From NCBI GenBank assembly GCA_028289265.1, contig JAQGGU010000085.1:1-15938 (forward strand): a stretch of DNA of 15,938 bases, given 5' to 3'. This stretch comes from Candidatus Saccharimonadota bacterium (GTDB lineage Bacteria > Patescibacteriota > Saccharimonadia > Saccharimonadales > UBA4665). This document shows, piece after piece, positions 4,689-13,495 of the stretch. Every line of letters starts with the position of its first letter. The first letter of the stretch is position 1. The translations under genes were made by a program, and so were the position numbers. Below the pieces are notes generated by a model. That model was not told the DNA's origin and did not search any database. It was given only the letters and a program-made list of their open reading frames with translations.

Positions 4689-5567
4689 CTACTCTGATTC
4701 GCCGCGCATAGCCTTAAGGCGCTGCTCGGTATCAAACTGGCGGTTCATGCGGTGCGCTTCTTTAAGCATGGCCTTATTAGCCTTCTTGCCAGCACGTTGA
4801 GCACTGTGTTTCTGAACACCAGCGCGGATATCAACCACATTCTCGTGCATAAGTCCGACAGTCTCCATGGCGTATTCCTTACTGGCAATAACCTTGGTGC
4901 GGCCGTAGTCCATTGTCTTTTCAGTGCCATGAGCTACCTTGTCGACACCGTAGCGCACACCCTTAGCGGCAACTTCAGTGGCAATCGCGCCCGTACCGAG
5001 TACGGCGAGACCGCTGAACTTCAAGGCTTCCTTGCCTACGCGTCCGGCGCGGTTCACGCCATTCTTTGAGGTTTCGTATTTGCGGGCTGTGCCTCCGGTA
5101 ACCTTCTCGGAGCGATTCTTTACTGTGGTAAGGAGTGTATCCTTACGTGCTCGAGCCGATTCTGAACGAGCCTTGAGGAAGTTACGGAAACTGTTAATTC
5201 CCTTCTTGCTCGCTTCAGTTACAGCAGAAAATGTCTCTGACAATTTTGTCCCAGCAGTTTGCGTAGCAGTAATAACAGAGTTGCCTACGAGGCGAGCTGC
5301 TTCTTTACCACGCTCAACACGGTTGACATCATTTTCATTAGATGCTGGGCTGATACCAGCTTCTTCAGCTAGGTCAGCGGATCGGTTAACAGGGTCTAAC
5401 GCTAAAATCGAGTCTTCAGCAGTTGTTTCCCGAACGGTGACATCAATTGTTTCTACGGGTGTTTCGAAAGATTTAACTACGACTAAATGTGGGTCGATTG
5501 TTGCGGCGTGTCGACCATAAGTATTAGGGTCAAGACTGCTTTGAGGTGCTTGTTCTGCTACTGACAT
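4689..5567 (-). CDS. Unknown helical, basic 292-residue protein
   Basis: No family is recognised. The N-terminal 80 residues are acidic and low in structure. From about residue 85 onward the chain is Lys/Arg/Ala-rich and amphipathic, with LEA- or apolipoprotein-like repeats (for example GKEAARLVGNSVITATQTAGTK). Residues 181-203 (ALKFSGLAVLGTGAIATEVA and following) form the only hydrophobic segment, borderline for a membrane span. The last 40 residues are strongly basic (QRAGKKANKAMLKEAHRMNR). A membrane- or nucleic-acid-associated structural role is possible but not shown. The start is secure: AGAAGGA precedes the ATG at 5567, and a promoter lies at 5632-5660. It is probably the first gene of a two-gene unit with the DUF5663-like protein. 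Confidence 0.85.
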   Translation of the reverse strand: MSVAEQAPQSSLDPNTYGRHAATIDPHLVVVKSFETPVETIDVTVRETTAEDSILALDPVNRSADLAEEAGISPASNENDVNRVERGKEAARLVGNSVITATQTAGTKLSETFSAVTEASKKGINSFRNFLKARSESARARKDTLLTTVKNRSEKVTGGTARKYETSKNGVNRAGRVGKEALKFSGLAVLGTGAIATEVAAKGVRYGVDKVAHGTEKTMDYGRTKVIASKEYAMETVGLMHENVVDIRAGVQKHSAQRAGKKANKAMLKEAHRMNRQFDTEQRLKAMRGESE

Positions 5568-5728: not shown

Positions 5729-6790
5729 GTGAAGGTTTTGGGCATTGAGACGAGTTGCGACGAAACGGCTGCTTCCGTAGTAGAAGACGGCCGTGTTTTA
5801 CTGTCCAATGTCGTTGCTAGCAGCATGGATCTGCATGCCCAGTACGGGGGTGTGGTGCCAGAGATCGCCGCGCGCAGCCATATCGAGGCAATAACTCCTG
5901 TCATCAGCGAAGCACTTGAGACAGCAAAGTGCACCTGGGATGATATCGATGCCATCGCCGTAACATACGGAGCCGGACTCGGCGGCAGCCTGCTTATCGG
6001 AGTACTAACCGCGCGGTCGTTGGCCATTGCCTACGATAAGCCCCTTTACGCCATCAACCACGTCGAAGGACACCTCTACGCAAATTTTCTGACGGATACT
6101 ACCCTTCCCTCCTATGTATTACCCGGCAAGCAACCGGAATTCCCCGTACTTGGTCTCATCGTATCAGGCGGACACAGTCAATTGGTGTATTTCCGGGATC
6201 ATTTTGATTACACCTTACTGGGACAGACCAATGATGACGCCATCGGCGAAGCTTTTGATAAGGTAGCCAAGATCCTTGGCCTCCCCTACCCTGGCGGACC
6301 TTCTGTCAGCAAAAAAGCCCTCGAGGGTAACCCGCAGGCCTTCGCACTTCCAAAAGCAAAGCTTACCAATAAGTACGACTTTTCTTTTTCAGGACTTAAA
6401 ACAGCGGTACTACGCCTTGCCCAGGAGCAAATCGGTGAAGACTTCACTTTCCCCTCCACTGCCCTGTCCGACCGCTTATCGGAAAGCCAAAAAGCTGACA
6501 TTGCGGCTAGCTTCCAGCGTATCGCCGTGGAAACAGTAGTGGATAAAGCCGTACTTGCCTACGAAGAATTCCAGCCCAAGACCGTTATCATCGGCGGCGG
6601 CGTGGCAAGCAGTCCGGAACTTCGCCGGCAACTATCAGAAAGACTTCCCTTACCTCTTACATATACTGATCCAAAACTTTGTACAGACAATGGCGCCATG
6701 ATTGCCACACTCGGCTGCTACAAGGCTATGCTCGGAGCCGATGCATCAGACCCCTACACCCTTGACATCGCCCCTAACCTCTCAATGTAG
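5729..6790 (+). CDS. tsaD: tRNA N6-adenosine threonylcarbamoyltransferase TsaD
   Basis: Transfers the threonylcarbamoyl group from threonylcarbamoyl-AMP to A37 of ANN-decoding tRNAs (t6A synthesis), with TsaB and TsaE as usual partners; neither is in this window. The ASKHA fold signatures are intact: GIETSCDETAASVV (5-18), the iron-binding HVEGH (His111, His115), VSGGHSQLVYF (146-156), GEAFDKVAKILGLPYPGGP (173-191), DFSFSGLKTAV, GGGVASSPELR and CTDNGAMIA with Asp320. Its 353 residues are standard for the family. Translation starts at GTG 5729; no other in-frame start exists close upstream and there is no ribosome-binding site. The 3' end overlaps the convergent 162-residue gene by 17 bp. Confidence 0.96.
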   Translation: MKVLGIETSCDETAASVVEDGRVLLSNVVASSMDLHAQYGGVVPEIAARSHIEAITPVISEALETAKCTWDDIDAIAVTYGAGLGGSLLIGVLTARSLAIAYDKPLYAINHVEGHLYANFLTDTTLPSYVLPGKQPEFPVLGLIVSGGHSQLVYFRDHFDYTLLGQTNDDAIGEAFDKVAKILGLPYPGGPSVSKKALEGNPQAFALPKAKLTNKYDFSFSGLKTAVLRLAQEQIGEDFTFPSTALSDRLSESQKADIAASFQRIAVETVVDKAVLAYEEFQPKTVIIGGGVASSPELRRQLSERLPLPLTYTDPKLCTDNGAMIATLGCYKAMLGADASDPYTLDIAPNLSM

Positions 6791-7262
6791 GTATAGGCGG
6801 CTCAACGTAGGCTATTCCAACGAATAACTCGGAAGCTCCCTGCCGGCTATTATTACGCCTGGGCTGAAACTCTTCGGGGATCTGGGCCACTCCTTCGCGG
6901 GCTAAGGCCTCCCATACCTCCACATCGCGTTCATGCTCAGCAAAAGGATCATTCATAAATATCTCCCCGTGTCCAAGCGTCGTGTCCTCGATAGCCAATA
7001 GGTACGCTGCGAGGCGCACTTCCCTGTCTAAATGCCTGTCCGTTACTTCAAGGCGGGTAAAATACCGCCTGGCGTTAGGCGCCCGCACAATGGTAGCCTG
7101 CCCAGCCCCTCCATGGGTCGCATCTATTAGGAGATAATTGTCTGTAATGACATGGAAACTAGGCCTGATATCAGGCACCAAGACAACTTCTGGCAGCTTA
7201 TTGTCCGGATCTACGGCCTCTCTCACAAAGCTCGTCTCTAATCTGTGAATTTCTCGTGCCAT
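6774..7262 (-). CDS. Unknown 162-residue protein, possibly a divergent GNAT-like fold
   Basis: A clean frame with a good start: ATG 7262 follows AAAGGGAAG and an extended -10 promoter. I do not recognise the family with confidence. The first 75 residues look beta-rich (VVLVPDIRPSFHVITDNYLLID). A helical part follows (REVRLAAYLLAIEDTTLG), and then HGEIFMNDPFAEHERDVEVWEALAREGVAQ. The last segment recalls the C-terminal half of small N-acetyltransferases, but no acetyl-CoA-binding RxxGxG/A loop is evident, so this is speculative. No signal peptide or membrane span. Its gene is divergent from valS and overlaps tsaD tail to tail by 17 bp. Confidence 0.8.
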   Translation of the reverse strand: MAREIHRLETSFVREAVDPDNKLPEVVLVPDIRPSFHVITDNYLLIDATHGGAGQATIVRAPNARRYFTRLEVTDRHLDREVRLAAYLLAIEDTTLGHGEIFMNDPFAEHERDVEVWEALAREGVAQIPEEFQPRRNNSRQGASELFVGIAYVEPPIPTLRG

Positions 7263-7314: not shown

Positions 7315-7344
7315 TTGACACCAGTTCCCTATCGGGGTTATGCT
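7315..7344 (+). promoter_or_regulatory. Promoter of valS and its leader
   Basis: TTGACA (7315-7320), then TATGCT (7339-7344) at an 18-bp spacing, or TTATGC (7338-7343) at 17 bp. The predicted start of transcription is near 7351, far upstream of the valS ATG at 7620. Confidence 0.5.
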
Positions 7345-7396
7345 TAGAGGGTCAAAAACAAAAAGTCCGTCGTACATATAACTGTACAGAGAAAAC

Positions 7397-7435
7397 TTGC
7401 ACATAGTTGCAGACCTCGCACATAGTTTGCGGACG
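7397..7435 (+). repeat. Tandem 19/20-nt repeat forming two similar hairpins
   Basis: Unit 1 is TTGCACATAGTTGCAGACC (7397-7415) and unit 2 is TCGCACATAGTTTGCGGACG (7416-7435). Each folds into a short stem with a CATAGT(T) loop. The T7398-A7411 pair of unit 1 is replaced by C7417-G7431 in unit 2, so the pairing is kept although both bases differ. Confidence 0.6.
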
Positions 7436-7529
7436 AAAATTTGTTCCGGTGGACGGAATGTCAGGAAAGGGAATTAAACAAAGGGCTTTTCATGTGAAAA
7501 GGCTTATGTTTAGTGCGCTTTTCACGTGG

Positions 7530-7585
7530 AATTAGCATAAACATTACAGAGGTGGGAAATTACCCTCTTAGGTGTTATGCTAATT
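7530..7585 (+). repeat. Long imperfect stem-loop upstream of valS
   Basis: Perfect 11-bp outer arms AATTAGCATAA (7530-7540) and TTATGCTAATT (7575-7585), an imperfect middle with G-T pairs, and an inner AGAGG/CCTCT stem (7548-7552 with 7564-7568). It ends 34 bases before the valS start and has no U-tract. Confidence 0.6.
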
Positions 7586-7619
7586 GTAGTTAATGGGACT
7601 ATTTTAAAGAGAGACGTGT

Positions 7620-10181
7620 ATGAAATTGCCGAAAATTTACGAACCAGGTTTATACGAAAATGATATCTACGCCTTATGGGAACGCGCCGAGGCTTTTAAG
7701 CCGTCAGGGAAGGGCGATCCATACACGATCGTCATGCCACCGCCAAACGCGAATGGCAACCTGCACATTGGTCACGAACTAACTGCCGCCCTTGAGGATA
7801 TCGCAGCTCGCTACCACCGCTTAAAAGGCGATAATACTTTACTTCTGCCAGGCGCAGACCATGCTGGCTTTGAAACACAATCAGTTTACGAAAAACACCT
7901 AGCCAAAGAAGGGAAGAGCCGCTTTGATTTCTCGCGCGAGGAGCTGTACCGCCAAATATGGGATTTTGTAGCCCTGAACAGGGATAATTTTGAGATGCAA
8001 ATGCGTCGTATGGGAGTTAGCTGCGACTGGTCGCGTTTTACCTTTACGCTTGACGATAAAATCGTTAAAACTGCTTATCACACTTTCAAAAAAATGTGGG
8101 ATGAAGGCCGTATTTACAGAGGCGAGCGCTTAGTCAACTTCTGTACCTTCCATGGCACGGCCTTTGCCGACATCGAAGTGGTGTACAAGGAAGAAAAAAG
8201 TAAACTGTGGTATCTGAAGTATCCACTGACTGATGGCAGCGGAGAGATCATTGTCGCCACCACCCGTCCGGAGACTATGTTTGGCGACACTGCTGTCGCC
8301 GTCCATCCGAATGACCAAACCTATGCCAAATATATTGGTAAAACGGTTAAACTACCCCTTACAAAAAGGGAAATCCCCGTCATTGCTGACGACTTTGTAG
8401 ACCCGCAGTTTGGCACCGGTGCCGTCAAGATCACGCCAGCCCACGACCAGAACGACTATGACGCCGGCCAACGCCACGACTTGCCAAAAATCACCGTCAT
8501 CCACACCGACGGAACGCTCAACGACGAAGTGCCGGAAGCATACCGTGGTATGCCGGTCCTCGAGGCGCGCGAACGCGTAGCCAAAGATTTGAAAGAGCAG
8601 GGGATACTTGAAAAGACTGAAGACTACGCGCACAACGTCGGACACTGTTACAAGTGCAACACCGTTATCCAGCCACTGCTCCGCGAACAATGGTTTGTCG
8701 ATATGCAGCCGCTCGCTCGTGACGCCATCAAGGTATTGAAGGCGGACAAGATTAAGTTTTATCCGGATGCCAAGAAAGACCAGCTGGTCACATACCTGGA
8801 GGGCCTGCGCGACTGGAACATCTCGCGGCAGATAGCATGGGGTATTCCTATCCCGGCATTCCAGAATGTCGACGATCCTGACGATTGGATTTATGACGAA
8901 AGGGTAGGGGAAGAACTGATAACTATCGGCGACAAGACCTACCACCGCGATCCTGACGTCTTCGATACCTGGTTCTCCAGCAGCTCCTGGCCCTACGCCA
9001 CACTTGGTTACCCGGACAGCGACGACTTCAAGACGTTCTATCCGACTGGCCTCATGGAAACTGGCGGAGAAATCCTTTACCCATGGGTCTCCCGCATGGT
9101 CATGCTGGGGTTGTACGTAACGGGTGATATTCCTTTCAAAGAAGTCTACATCCATGGCTATGTCATGGCCGAAGACGGCTCAAAGATGAGCAAGTCCGTC
9201 GGCAATGTAGTCGACCCGCTACCTGTCATTGAGCAGTACGGATCTGACGCGCTGCGCATGGGTATCATTAGCGGCCGCAGCCCGGCCGTCAACCGCGGCT
9301 ACGACACGCGTAAGGTGGAAGAAGCCCGTAACTTCGCTAACAAGCTATGGAACGTCGCTCGCTTTATCGAAGATATCGTCGGCGATGAATTCAGCGGGAA
9401 GGGAAGCTGCAAACCGCAAACTGCGGCCGACCATTGGATGTTGAGAGAATTACAACGAACAGACGAGTTAATCTCTTCCCACTTGGACGAGTACCGCTTC
9501 AGCGAAGCCTATGACGTTTTGTACCATTTCGTATGGGACGACTTCGCCGACTGGTACATCGAGGCCAGCAAGTCTGCACCAAACAAGGCGTTACTGGCCT
9601 ATGCCTTAGAAAATATTCTCAAACTCGCGCATCCTTTTGCGCCGTTTGTTACTGAAACTATTTGGCAGACCTTAGCGTGGGAAGGGAATAGCATTTTAGC
9701 TAAAGCTTCCTGGCCCGAGAAGTCGCGCTATGACGATGGTGAGGCTGACATTTTCAATGAGATCAAAGCAATCGTCATGGAAACTCGCTTCATTACCACG
9801 GCACTCCGCGTCCAAGGGGCAACGCTCTATTACACCAATGTATCATTCCTGACAGACAATGCCGAGCTCATAACACGTTTGGCGCGCTTGAACGCCGTCA
9901 CAGAAGTCACCGATGGCACTGGGCTGTACCTGACGAGCACTAAGTACCGCAGTTGGCTGGATATCGATGCCGACACCGCTCGGGGCTATCAAAAGCAACT
10001 CGGCGAGAAGCGGGACGCCCAGGAGCAAGTCATCAAGCGCCTGGAAGGCCGCTTAGCTAATAAGTCATATGTCGACAATGCCCCAAAAAAAGTAGTTGAT
10101 GAGACAAAGCAGCAGCTCGAAGATGCTAAAGGACAGCTCGAAGCCCTCACCAAAGAATACGAACGCTTCGGCACGGAATAA
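7620..10181 (+). CDS. valS: Valyl-tRNA synthetase
   Basis: Class Ia aminoacyl-tRNA synthetase that charges tRNA-Val with valine and edits threonine mischarging. The Rossmann-fold signature PPPNANGNLHIGH carries HIGH at 49-52. The editing domain has TTRPETMFGDTAVAVHP (214-230). A zinc-knuckle-like GHCYKC lies near 341-346 and is followed by REQWFV. The DGSKMSKSVGNVVDP segment carries KMSKS at 522-526. The anticodon-binding helical domain follows, and the last 65 residues form the ValS-type C-terminal coiled coil (QKQLGEKRDAQEQVIKRLEG and so on). At 853 residues it is slightly shorter than B. subtilis or E. coli ValS, but no motif is missing. The ATG at 7620 has only a weak purine-rich stretch (AAAGAGAGA) upstream, and the gene has a long structured leader. 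The downstream flavoprotein gene starts two bases after its stop. Confidence 0.97.
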   Translation: MKLPKIYEPGLYENDIYALWERAEAFKPSGKGDPYTIVMPPPNANGNLHIGHELTAALEDIAARYHRLKGDNTLLLPGADHAGFETQSVYEKHLAKEGKSRFDFSREELYRQIWDFVALNRDNFEMQMRRMGVSCDWSRFTFTLDDKIVKTAYHTFKKMWDEGRIYRGERLVNFCTFHGTAFADIEVVYKEEKSKLWYLKYPLTDGSGEIIVATTRPETMFGDTAVAVHPNDQTYAKYIGKTVKLPLTKREIPVIADDFVDPQFGTGAVKITPAHDQNDYDAGQRHDLPKITVIHTDGTLNDEVPEAYRGMPVLEARERVAKDLKEQGILEKTEDYAHNVGHCYKCNTVIQPLLREQWFVDMQPLARDAIKVLKADKIKFYPDAKKDQLVTYLEGLRDWNISRQIAWGIPIPAFQNVDDPDDWIYDERVGEELITIGDKTYHRDPDVFDTWFSSSSWPYATLGYPDSDDFKTFYPTGLMETGGEILYPWVSRMVMLGLYVTGDIPFKEVYIHGYVMAEDGSKMSKSVGNVVDPLPVIEQYGSDALRMGIISGRSPAVNRGYDTRKVEEARNFANKLWNVARFIEDIVGDEFSGKGSCKPQTAADHWMLRELQRTDELISSHLDEYRFSEAYDVLYHFVWDDFADWYIEASKSAPNKALLAYALENILKLAHPFAPFVTETIWQTLAWEGNSILAKASWPEKSRYDDGEADIFNEIKAIVMETRFITTALRVQGATLYYTNVSFLTDNAELITRLARLNAVTEVTDGTGLYLTSTKYRSWLDIDADTARGYQKQLGEKRDAQEQVIKRLEGRLANKSYVDNAPKKVVDETKQQLEDAKGQLEALTKEYERFGTE

Positions 10182-10676: not shown

Positions 10677-11540
10677 CTATACAACAGCGGGCTCGAGAGA
10701 GCCGCGGATGCGGGGGATGGTTTCTTCGGGGTGATAGTCGTCGCACCACAGGACATGCCAACCAAGTTTGTCAGCCGTCATGATATTTGGCCGAGAATCG
10801 TCAATGAAGAGTATTTCCTCGGGCTTTACACCAGCACGCTCAGCAGCTATTTCAAATATCTTTGTCTCAGGTTTGATGGCACCGACTTCTGAAGAGTCAA
10901 TAATAACGTCGTAGTCGACATCCGGCAGAATGCCACGGGCGCGCATTGCAAGAACAAAGCCCGGCATGATATTTGTCAGCAGCCCAACCCTATAATGCGC
11001 GGCGGTCCAGCGGACAAGCTCGTCCATGCCCCTTACGGGCTCAACACTGTCCAGATAATAAGCCTCCCAGTCCAAAGTGGGCATACCCACCCGCTCGGCA
11101 AACCGCCGATTGAATTCATCCATCGACATAGCTCCACGGCAGACGTCGTCGTTATACTGCCAATAGGTCGTCTCAATGACATCGGCCGATACACCGCTCT
11201 CCTCGGCCAACCGCATAAATGCGCGATGAAAGAAGTGCACCAGGCAGCCGTTGATATCAAAGTAAACAAAGCGCACACCGCTCTTCGAAACTGCTTTACT
11301 GGCCTTATTTGTAGAAACTAGCGGCGGCGCCACTGAATGTCCCATAAGCTGGTCCAGTGAAATACCAAGAGCTGTAGAGATGTGCTGAATAGTGAATATT
11401 GAGGGGGACTTGATGGCACCGCGTTCTATCTTAGCAAGGGTAGAGTAGCTTATATTAGCCTTATGGCACAACGCTTGCTGCGTCAGTCCGCTCGCACGGC
11501 GCGCTTCCTGCAATCTTTGGCCCAACCCCTTCTCATCCAT
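10677..11540 (-). CDS. XRE-type HTH fused to a HAD-family hydrolase-like domain
   Basis: 287 residues in two parts. Residues 7-66 are an XRE/Cro helix-turn-helix (GQRLQEARRASGLTQQALCH, then KANISYSTLAKIERG and IFTIQHISTALGISLDQLM). After a linker, residues 89-280 form a HAD-IA domain: motif I FVYFDINGCLV (Asp95, Asn97), motif II LLTN (Thr189), motif III IKPETKIFE (Lys223) and motif IV ILFIDDSRPNI (Asp247-Asp248). In HAD phosphatases the second motif I acid is Asp; here it is Asn, so phosphatase activity may be lost or altered. A one-protein metabolite sensor and DNA-binding regulator is a reasonable inference. The ATG at 11540 follows an extended -10 (TGGTATGAT) by six bases with no Shine-Dalgarno, so the mRNA is probably leaderless. 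Confidence 0.88.
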   Translation of the reverse strand: MDEKGLGQRLQEARRASGLTQQALCHKANISYSTLAKIERGAIKSPSIFTIQHISTALGISLDQLMGHSVAPPLVSTNKASKAVSKSGVRFVYFDINGCLVHFFHRAFMRLAEESGVSADVIETTYWQYNDDVCRGAMSMDEFNRRFAERVGMPTLDWEAYYLDSVEPVRGMDELVRWTAAHYRVGLLTNIMPGFVLAMRARGILPDVDYDVIIDSSEVGAIKPETKIFEIAAERAGVKPEEILFIDDSRPNIMTADKLGWHVLWCDDYHPEETIPRIRGSLEPAVV

Positions 11541-12294: not shown

Positions 12295-12301
12295 ATAAAT
12301 G

Positions 12302-12324
12302 ATTGTACTACTTTGCGGTACAAT
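12302..12324. promoter_or_regulatory. Symmetric divergent promoter between HIT and membrane genes
   Basis: An inverted repeat ATTGTAC (12302-12308) and GTACAAT (12318-12324) contains a TACAAT -10 box on each strand. Each box ends exactly seven bases before an ATG: 12294 on the minus strand and 12332 on the plus strand. Both transcripts would be leaderless, and the two promoters must compete for the same DNA. Confidence 0.5.
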
Positions 12325-12331
12325 ACAAACT

Positions 12332-13495
12332 ATGCCGGAAAGACGCTTTTCTTTTTCCTTTCTCATAATAAGTACACTACTGACCATCGCGCTCGGGGGT
12401 TGGGTCATCACCTCTGCGCTGACTCGGACGGTCGGCCAGCCTGAGCAGGCAAAAGATTTACTCAATAAAAGTGGTTTATACCAGGCAATTATCCCGCAGC
12501 AGGTGGCCGATGCACAGAAAGCCAACCCTTCACTATCTGGTATACCCTTGGATAATCCGGAAATACAAAAAATCCTCGCCACTTCTTTGGATACGCAAAA
12601 ACTCCAGAACGAAGGCGATAAAGCCGTTGATGCCGTGTATGCATGGCTTGAAGGGAAGAGCGGCGAGCCTCGTATTGATATATCTGTTATGGCCGACCAG
12701 GAATCATTGGCACAGGCAGCCGGAGACTACGCCGCTAAACATGCAGCATCCCTACCAGCCTGCGGCCCTGGCGAAGCTGACTATGCCGCCTTTGCCGACA
12801 ACCCGCTCTCTGCGACTTGCTTGCCGGTAGGCATAAGCCCGGAAATCGTTCAAAGTAACGTCGAACAAGCCGTCGCCAATAACCCAGCACTCGGCACGAG
12901 CACACAGCTGACAGAGAACGACCTCAAACTGGCCAATGGAAAGACCATTATGGAGAGCTTCAATAGCGCTCCCGTTTGGTATCAGCGCGCCCGATTATTA
13001 CCTCTGATTTTTATCACTATTGCCGCTATCTGCGTAGTGCTATTACTTCTGATACTCAAGACTGAACAAGGTGTTAGATCAGCTGGCAAACATTTCCTAA
13101 GCGTGGGTATTACATTTGCTCTCGTCGCCATCGCACTAGCCTGGGGACTCGAAAAGTTATTCAGCACATTTATACCGAAGAGCGATAATCCGAACGTTGG
13201 CGACGCCCTCATGAAGTTATCGACGCTCTTTAACGCGGCGCTGCGTGACAATATGGTGCTCGTCAGCCTATATCTTGTAGCAGCCGGAGCCATCTTCTTG
13301 ATTTGCGCTCTACTACTAAGGCGAATGAAGCGGAGTACGGCCGGTACAACAACGCCCGAAGCCCCGACGGATACCCGTACGCCAGCACCACCCAAGACCA
13401 CTTTCGTTCCTGCAGCAAAGCCTGCTACTAAAAAACCAGCGAAAGCAGCGCCAAAAAAGAAACCCGCTACACACAAGAAAAAGAAAGTAGAGTAA
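12332..13495 (+). CDS. Four-helix membrane protein with Lys/Ala/Pro-rich cytoplasmic tail
   Basis: 387 residues from ATG 12332. Predicted spans are 8-30, 222-242, 254-274 and 308-329. The 190-residue region between spans 1 and 2 would be extracytoplasmic and carries two cysteines (Cys144, Cys163) that could form a disulfide. After span 4 a tail of about 55 residues is Thr/Pro-rich, then strongly basic (KPATKKPAKAAPKKKPATHK), like histone H1-type nucleic-acid-binding tails. No family is recognised. An upstream ATG at 12299 is possible but would overlap the divergent promoter. At 12332 a TACAAT box ends seven bases before the start. It is divergent from the HIT gene and ends about 200 bp before the DCC gene's stop. 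Confidence 0.85.
   Translation: MPERRFSFSFLIISTLLTIALGGWVITSALTRTVGQPEQAKDLLNKSGLYQAIIPQQVADAQKANPSLSGIPLDNPEIQKILATSLDTQKLQNEGDKAVDAVYAWLEGKSGEPRIDISVMADQESLAQAAGDYAAKHAASLPACGPGEADYAAFADNPLSATCLPVGISPEIVQSNVEQAVANNPALGTSTQLTENDLKLANGKTIMESFNSAPVWYQRARLLPLIFITIAAICVVLLLLILKTEQGVRSAGKHFLSVGITFALVAIALAWGLEKLFSTFIPKSDNPNVGDALMKLSTLFNAALRDNMVLVSLYLVAAGAIFLICALLLRRMKRSTAGTTTPEAPTDTRTPAPPKTTFVPAAKPATKKPAKAAPKKKPATHKKKKVE

Follow-up and report, generated by a model that had tools for sequence, protein, structure and literature searches.

What lies in the long intergenic stretch upstream of the valyl-tRNA synthetase gene valS, and does it control that gene? The window, by which we mean the whole 15,938-nucleotide stretch of DNA analyzed here, is Saccharibacteria-type DNA; it belongs to an assembly of 896 kb in 113 contigs, and the nearest named relatives of its valyl-tRNA synthetase (ValRS) are Candidatus Saccharibacteria, the closest being CP023991.1 at 81%. 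The valS gene is encoded on the plus strand at positions 7620-10181 (NCBIfam valine--tRNA ligase). A sequence-only reading of this DNA had remarked on a conspicuous leader RNA in front of valS, and the core of that observation holds: the leader contains a hairpin that is conserved and valS-specific. The same reading had raised the possibility of an undescribed valS control element; an undescribed valS element without a T-box is indeed supported by its conservation, its tie to valS and the lack of an Rfam match, while control of valS by the leader is likely, judging from position, valS specificity and conservation.

The region holds a real sense-strand RNA element that is tied to valS in Saccharibacteria and is matched by no Rfam family in the searches made; this hairpin RNA is probably an undescribed control element for valyl-tRNA synthetase. 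Among the literature matches listed, there was no native leader RNA of valS or of another synthetase gene in Saccharibacteria or Patescibacteria; the excerpted text of PMC11665869 names riboswitches as a possible tool and reference, with nothing native.

Architecture of the valS leader

Between the opposing open reading frame (ORF) at 6774-7262 and valS, the window presents, in order, a predicted promoter, an A-rich tract, a variable stretch, a long hairpin, a box, an inverted repeat particular to the window and a predicted extended -10 element, all on the plus strand. The A-rich tract AAAAACAAAAA (7354-7364) lies at the predicted 5′ end, and a AAAACAAA-like tract is found at the same place in relatives. 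It is followed by a variable 5′ domain (7366-7462) that contains GUACAU (7372-7377) and GCACAU (7399-7404 and 7418-7423), and then by the long conserved hairpin, P2/P3 (7464-7523), which runs into the box UUUCACGUGGAA, or TTTCACGTGGAA (7520-7531; TTTCAYRTGAAA in relatives). The window-only inverted repeat, with its hairpin, occupies 7530-7585 (arms 7530-7540 and 7575-7585). Long ORFs without a Pfam match are present in the window at 1721-2893, 4689-5567, 6774-7262 (minus strand) and 12299-13495 (plus strand); 1721-2893 and 6774-7262 are also without an NCBIfam match.

The leader had been described as about 270 nt long with at least five hairpins, a description that is overstated, because only one hairpin is both strong and conserved and a second is strong but not common to relatives. 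As a whole, positions 7348-7640 yielded a fold with a z of -3.12, with 2/200 shuffles equally good. The 5′ half of the proposed leader (7351-7464) folded at chance (z -0.72; 49/200 shuffles equally good), and its variable domain is missing from the minimal form of the leader that is described below. The strong folds are those of the hairpin (7463-7533; z -5.36) and of the segment that follows (7528-7619; z -3.80), each with 0/200 shuffles equally good. An inverted repeat (at least 9) at the equivalent place was present in 4/55 leader loci, the window included, and the other three are different sequences.

A sigma-70-like upstream promoter (TTGACA-18 nt-TATGCT, 10/12 consensus matches) is predicted at 7315-7344, with a start expected near 7351. 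The scan covered 701 bases, and shuffles of it contained a mean of 1.0 such site; one site is thus expected by chance, and this promoter gains its weight solely from relatives whose parts are arranged in the same way. By eye, promoter, A-rich tract and hairpin do follow one another in the same order in relatives, where the promoter is succeeded by the A-rich tract ~10 nt past the -10, a variable 5′ domain, the hairpin, the box and, in many cases, another promoter next to the start codon. The putative second promoter of the window is an extended -10, TGTTATGCT (7573-7581), which ends 38 nt before the ATG; absent from the promoter-scan list, it is a reading of the sequence by eye. A -10-like TAYNNT stood 5-10 nt before the ATG in 50/90 relatives' loci vs 7/90 in a control window, and the window's site, at 38 nt, lies farther from its ATG than those of the relatives. 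Since the second promoter sits at the start codon at such loci, we infer that the leader could govern the long transcript only. The RNA start near 7351 that had been put forward fits the predicted upstream promoter, but a single start does not fit the second predicted -10. A second start was probably overlooked, and a transcription start just upstream of 7620, which the earlier reading had named as evidence against a leader, is touched upon by the predicted extended -10.

The motif ACAGAGGTGNTATNNT occurred at 32 sites in 29/80 genomes, with a start codon within ~10 nt in several cases. It was rejected as a valS-specific motif, being present also before other genes (thrS-, der-, metG- and prfA-like by ORF reading). 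It is probably an ordinary promoter, and likely represents a Saccharibacteria promoter type that would yield leaderless mRNAs, before apparent housekeeping genes.

Conservation of the hairpin and its tie to valS

A pattern search for an A-rich tract with a TTTCACGTGAA-like box after it was performed on the valS upstream regions of 90 relatives' loci (30 from the ValRS search and 60 fetched) and retrieved 37 of them; eight of the 37 (L033, L037, L047, L049, L054, L058, L059, L071) were left out of the first alignment. By our own reading of single-sequence folds, most have the same long hairpin. A covariance model, R1, of 69 positions and 20 pairs was built from 11 relatives that were hand-picked for equal hairpin length, with the window excluded. 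R1 matched 93/294 related genomes at E<=0.1; in the other 201/294, which had no match at this threshold, the leader is accordingly dispensable or diverged. The sole R1 match in the window's genome at E<=0.1 is 7465-7532 (32.0 bits, E 1.3e-4). The covariance search over valS upstream regions that had been suggested for conservation in relatives thus recovers the hairpin with a model that does not contain the window, and ties it to valS.

All 30 of the strongest R1 matches in the 294 genomes lie upstream of valS, 29 of them within ~240 nt and one (L110, genome G015) at ~690 nt. Of the next 20 matches that were fetched, 18 are just upstream of valS in sense; the match in L140 is false, being inside valS, and for L124 there was no valS in the 330 nt examined. 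Across 80 named valS loci (357 kb), which overlap the first genome set, R1 gave 24 matches at E<=0.01, none away from the valS start: 21 in sense in 21 loci, each starting no more than ~305 nt upstream of valS, and three antisense at the same place. At locus L017, the hairpin (740-808) stands after tsaD, and an opposing ORF (956-1396) lies between it and valS, ~690 nt apart; this hairpin is either a relic or an RNA working on its own.

A phylum sample of 286 genomes contained 14 R1 matches at E<=0.01, four in the same order (valS) and ten others; 8/10 of these weak matches outside the order were examined, and no ValRS was present in the fetched flanks. The leader RNA has so far been found in one order of Saccharibacteria. 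ValRS itself was matched in 148/148 genomes searched, and the leader also stands before ValRSs that are ~41-43% identical to that of the window over 300 residues (L105, L108, L116). A second ValRS type, ~40-51% identical to the window's, was noted in the same order (e.g. genomes G089, G126, G134), and some of its carriers have the same leader (L116, L108, L105).

A minimal form of the leader was recognized in family f34, for which 70 valS upstream regions (30 loci and 40 fetched), a subset of the f34 valS loci listed, were read. The compact leader was present in 32/79 sequences, comprising these 70, seven model-search loci and two others; 25/32 were among the 70. It consists of a -10, ~7 nt, (G)AAAACAAA, a single hairpin closed by CACGUG, and ~15-45 nt to the ATG, with the closing helix formed between a CACGUG near the 5′ end and the CACGUG of the box. 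The 32 sequences were picked for their A-rich tract and box, irrespective of pairing, and L211, L200, L166, L172, L155 and L145 were removed by hand. By a mechanical rule, the closing helix is fully paired in 24/32, and compensated variants were seen: CAUGUG/CACAUG (3), CACGCG/CGCGUG (2), CACAUG/CAUGUG (1) and ACGAG/CUCGU (2, at 5/6 positions). A first count of this helix was barely above shuffles, 57/5000 of which reached it; for the 18 departing rows, 86/108 cells pair vs a shuffled mean of 79.9, and 3/10,000 shuffles were as high. Rows L185, L187 and L197 are visibly mis-anchored, and L157, L175 and L134 have real mismatches.

The RNA hairpin and the palindromic box

In a structure-fitted alignment of 53 elements, which also includes the 11 hand-picked R1 seeds, 87.2% of cells are paired, 18/20 pairs are changed at both positions, and covariation scores 0.609 vs 0.248 shuffled and at most 0.164 slid. 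Under a null in which substitutions were scattered along a FastTree tree (52 rows), 8/20 structure pairs were supported at E<0.05; when all column pairs were considered, four were significant and 4/4 fell in the structure. The 11 seeds, ungapped over the hairpin and unfitted, scored 0.514 vs 0.273 shuffled and at most 0.225 slid. Neither the 52 elements nor the 32 minimal leaders had a significant pair when aligned by sequence only with MAFFT, which for the 52 elements is ascribed to unequal hairpin lengths. The covariation that the sequence-only reading had called for is therefore found in the fitted alignment and in the 11 unfitted sequences, but not in the sequence-only alignments; likewise, covariation above a phylogenetic null, by which a new RNA family would be recognized, was obtained on the structure-fitted alignment and not reproduced on the sequence-only ones. 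One antisense match (L005:4202) is counted among the 53; it was dropped from the 52-row tree null, the sequence-only alignment, and the z and strand tests.

Folding of single hairpins, for which no alignment is used, gave a mean z of -3.70 against shuffles (52 hairpins; 36/52 below -3), and the minimal leaders gave a mean z of -3.48 (n=32); mean z values for two sets of fold controls (60 each) were 0.13 and -0.31. A census of 1015 cells counted 217 G-U vs 13 A-C, and the sense strand was the more stable one in 51/52 hairpins vs 32/89 and 26/90 in controls. Because G-U far exceeds A-C and the sense strand is more stable, the hairpin is an RNA read in the valS sense; pure DNA inverted repeats were rejected for P2/P3 by the G-U vs A-C counts.

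The box can be followed on its own. Exact TTTCACGTGAAA was found at 23 sites in 18/80 genomes, 62/80 being without it; 20/23 sites lie upstream of valS at a distance of no more than ~320 nt, and the remaining three, of which one is inside valS, are within 2 kb of the valS start. Three sites had the pattern reversed. TTTCAYRTGAAA is present once in the window's genome, within the hairpin, and in the 320 nt upstream of valS at 34/80 named loci vs 1/80 and 0/80 in two coding windows; a tolerance of one mismatch changes these counts to 60 vs 13 and 0. The box is a valS signature, also at loci without a visible hairpin (e.g. L085, L089), and since it marks valS even there, a DNA role in some lineages is possible. 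By eye, motifs of the CGAACAAAAA type, resembling the A-rich tract that comes second in large leaders, seem reversed upstream of hairpin-less valS (L085, L087, L090).

Such a DNA role would be primary if the TTTCAYRTGAAA box were an operator for a valS-specific transcription factor, with the RNA hairpin adding a further layer or arising in part from clustered palindromes. A perfect palindrome that is nearly confined to the valS locus, that persists at L085 and L089 where no hairpin is seen, and that by eye often sits ~60 nt upstream of the downstream promoter agrees with such an operator. A protein that might bind it is encoded at 10680-11540 on the minus strand, convergent to valS: a fusion of an XRE-type HTH with a HAD hydrolase domain. 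It is matched at E<=1e-6 in 136/148 relatives, some matches being to the HAD part only; the best ten rows are all on the valS contig, convergent and within ~1.3 kb of valS, and the HTH-HAD protein may regulate valS or be its functional partner. As the sole reader of the box it is weakened, however, for the gene does not follow the box in two groups. In f34, where the box is present, none of the matches listed for 61 genomes covers HTH and HAD together, and no HTH-HAD gene is seen in the 2.8 kb beyond valS at 7 loci; in genus g36, the HTH-HAD gene is present (G039) and the box is absent by eye (L048, L050, L051). Furthermore, P2 is no palindrome and admits G-U but very little A-C, and the closing-helix variants CGCGTG and CTCGTG break the palindrome yet keep the RNA pair. 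With these observations in hand, we judge a DNA operator to be an unlikely primary function. A related system is E. coli alaS, where a DNA palindrome is bound by AlaRS; the palindromic valS box, too, belongs to one synthetase gene, but the conserved valS hairpin is RNA by the G-U test, and we know of no case of ValRS binding to DNA.

Candidate routes to valS control

An RNA hairpin in this position could also act without sensing, as a 5′ stability hairpin or as an independent small RNA that stands before valS by chance. The f34 hairpin does start near the predicted 5′ end, valS can be made without the leader where a second promoter lies beside the ATG, and the hairpin of L017 is remote from valS. 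A general stability element, however, would be expected before many genes, and the 30 best, 18/20 of the next and 24/24 of the named-locus matches are at valS; the f34 hairpin lies within the valS 5′ region, close to the ATG. We assign a low probability to this explanation.

Transcription attenuation, in which P3 and its U-rich 3′ flank would form a terminator that is countered by upstream strands or by a translated valine-rich peptide, is improbable. A U-rich strand does follow P3 in many members, and terminator-like sites, at 3/54 leaders vs 0.8 (sd 0.8) in shuffles, are slightly above chance; however, 51/54 leaders are without one, as is the window between 7100 and 7800. The ORFs of at least 8 codons in the window's leader contain no run of valine codons, and start codons at the A-rich tract are, by eye, not conserved in relatives. 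A valine-rich ORF followed by a terminator, as in a peptide-leader attenuator, was not found, and a leader peptide with terminator was rejected because it lacks the valine-codon run and terminators are rare.

Searching the window against Rfam returned no match except two tRNAs; with E allowed up to 10, there were three matches below threshold, all unrelated, and 20 relatives' loci had no match at gathering score, T-box included; T-box and other Rfam families were rejected on these grounds, in agreement with the earlier statement that the leader is without a T-box. A diverged T-box riboswitch for tRNA-Val is very improbable: gene class and leader length fit and the GUAC of the 5′ domain contains the valine codon GUA, but GUAC alternates with GCAC (alanine codon), so that no T-box specifier codon is kept, and a stem I would not fit into the minimal f34 leader.

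Mimicry of tRNA-Val by the leader, and pairing between the two, were considered as well. In our own reading, UUCACGU of the box agrees at 6/7 positions with the anticodon loop UUGACGU of the window's own tRNA-Val(GAC), a weak likeness that is weakened further by the conserved fold, which pairs those U residues, and by the many boxes that have CAU for CAC. In a scan for leader-tRNA duplexes, tRNA-Val ranked 4 and 6 of the 21 tRNAs found by one pattern; as it is not the best partner, pairing with it was rejected.

Taken together, a cis-acting leader of the valS mRNA that adjusts valS within a two-promoter scheme, most likely by product feedback, is the reading that we favor, with slightly less than even confidence. 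Computation shows that the hairpin is an RNA in the sense strand, that it is tied to valS and that it has no Rfam match; both promoters are predictions. The transcript from the upstream promoter would carry the A-rich 5′ end, the 5′ domain that is variable here, the long covarying hairpin and the UUUCACGUGAAA-type box, and a second promoter near the start codon would give a short or leaderless valS mRNA. The leader would read ValRS or the charging state of tRNA-Val and lower translation or elongation of the long transcript, and would in this manner adjust valS expression. ValRS, tRNA-Val or valine is the simplest reader because the element has a single target gene in each genome and no regulator linked to it shares its distribution; as a counterpoint, one binding protein would have to track ValRSs that are only ~41-43% identical to the window's.

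Known systems offer partial parallels. According to the excerpted text of PMC7373986, ThrRS of E. coli acts on the thrS mRNA by binding tRNA-like stem-loops of its own message, and this operator resembles the valS leader as a structured leader before a synthetase gene, with a single target and no terminator needed. Unlike the thrS operator with its tRNA-like domains, the valS leader is composed of a long hairpin, an A-rich 5′ tract and a CACGUG box, and is without a convincing mimic of the tRNA-Val anticodon arm. T-box riboswitches are leader RNAs before synthetase genes too, but the valS leader has neither an Rfam match nor a T-box sequence and hardly any terminators. In the same bacterial group, a 2017 survey reportedly described a TM7-linked structured RNA motif, lysM-TM7; that motif belongs to another gene, and the valS element is without an Rfam match.

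We tentatively propose, as a conjecture that may well fail, a leader with no relation to the T-box that would directly read ValRS, valine or the charging of tRNA-Val, by way of its A-rich 5′ end, its long hairpin and a CACGUG box that RNA and DNA have in common. If true, this would be a further way for bacteria to sense the supply for one synthetase, kept before very different ValRS lineages in reduced genomes. The element, if real, would offer a model in which control by amino acids or by tRNA charging can be tested in an episymbiotic, reduced lineage; it would also be a candidate for a new RNA family and a natural part for gene expression in Saccharibacteria.
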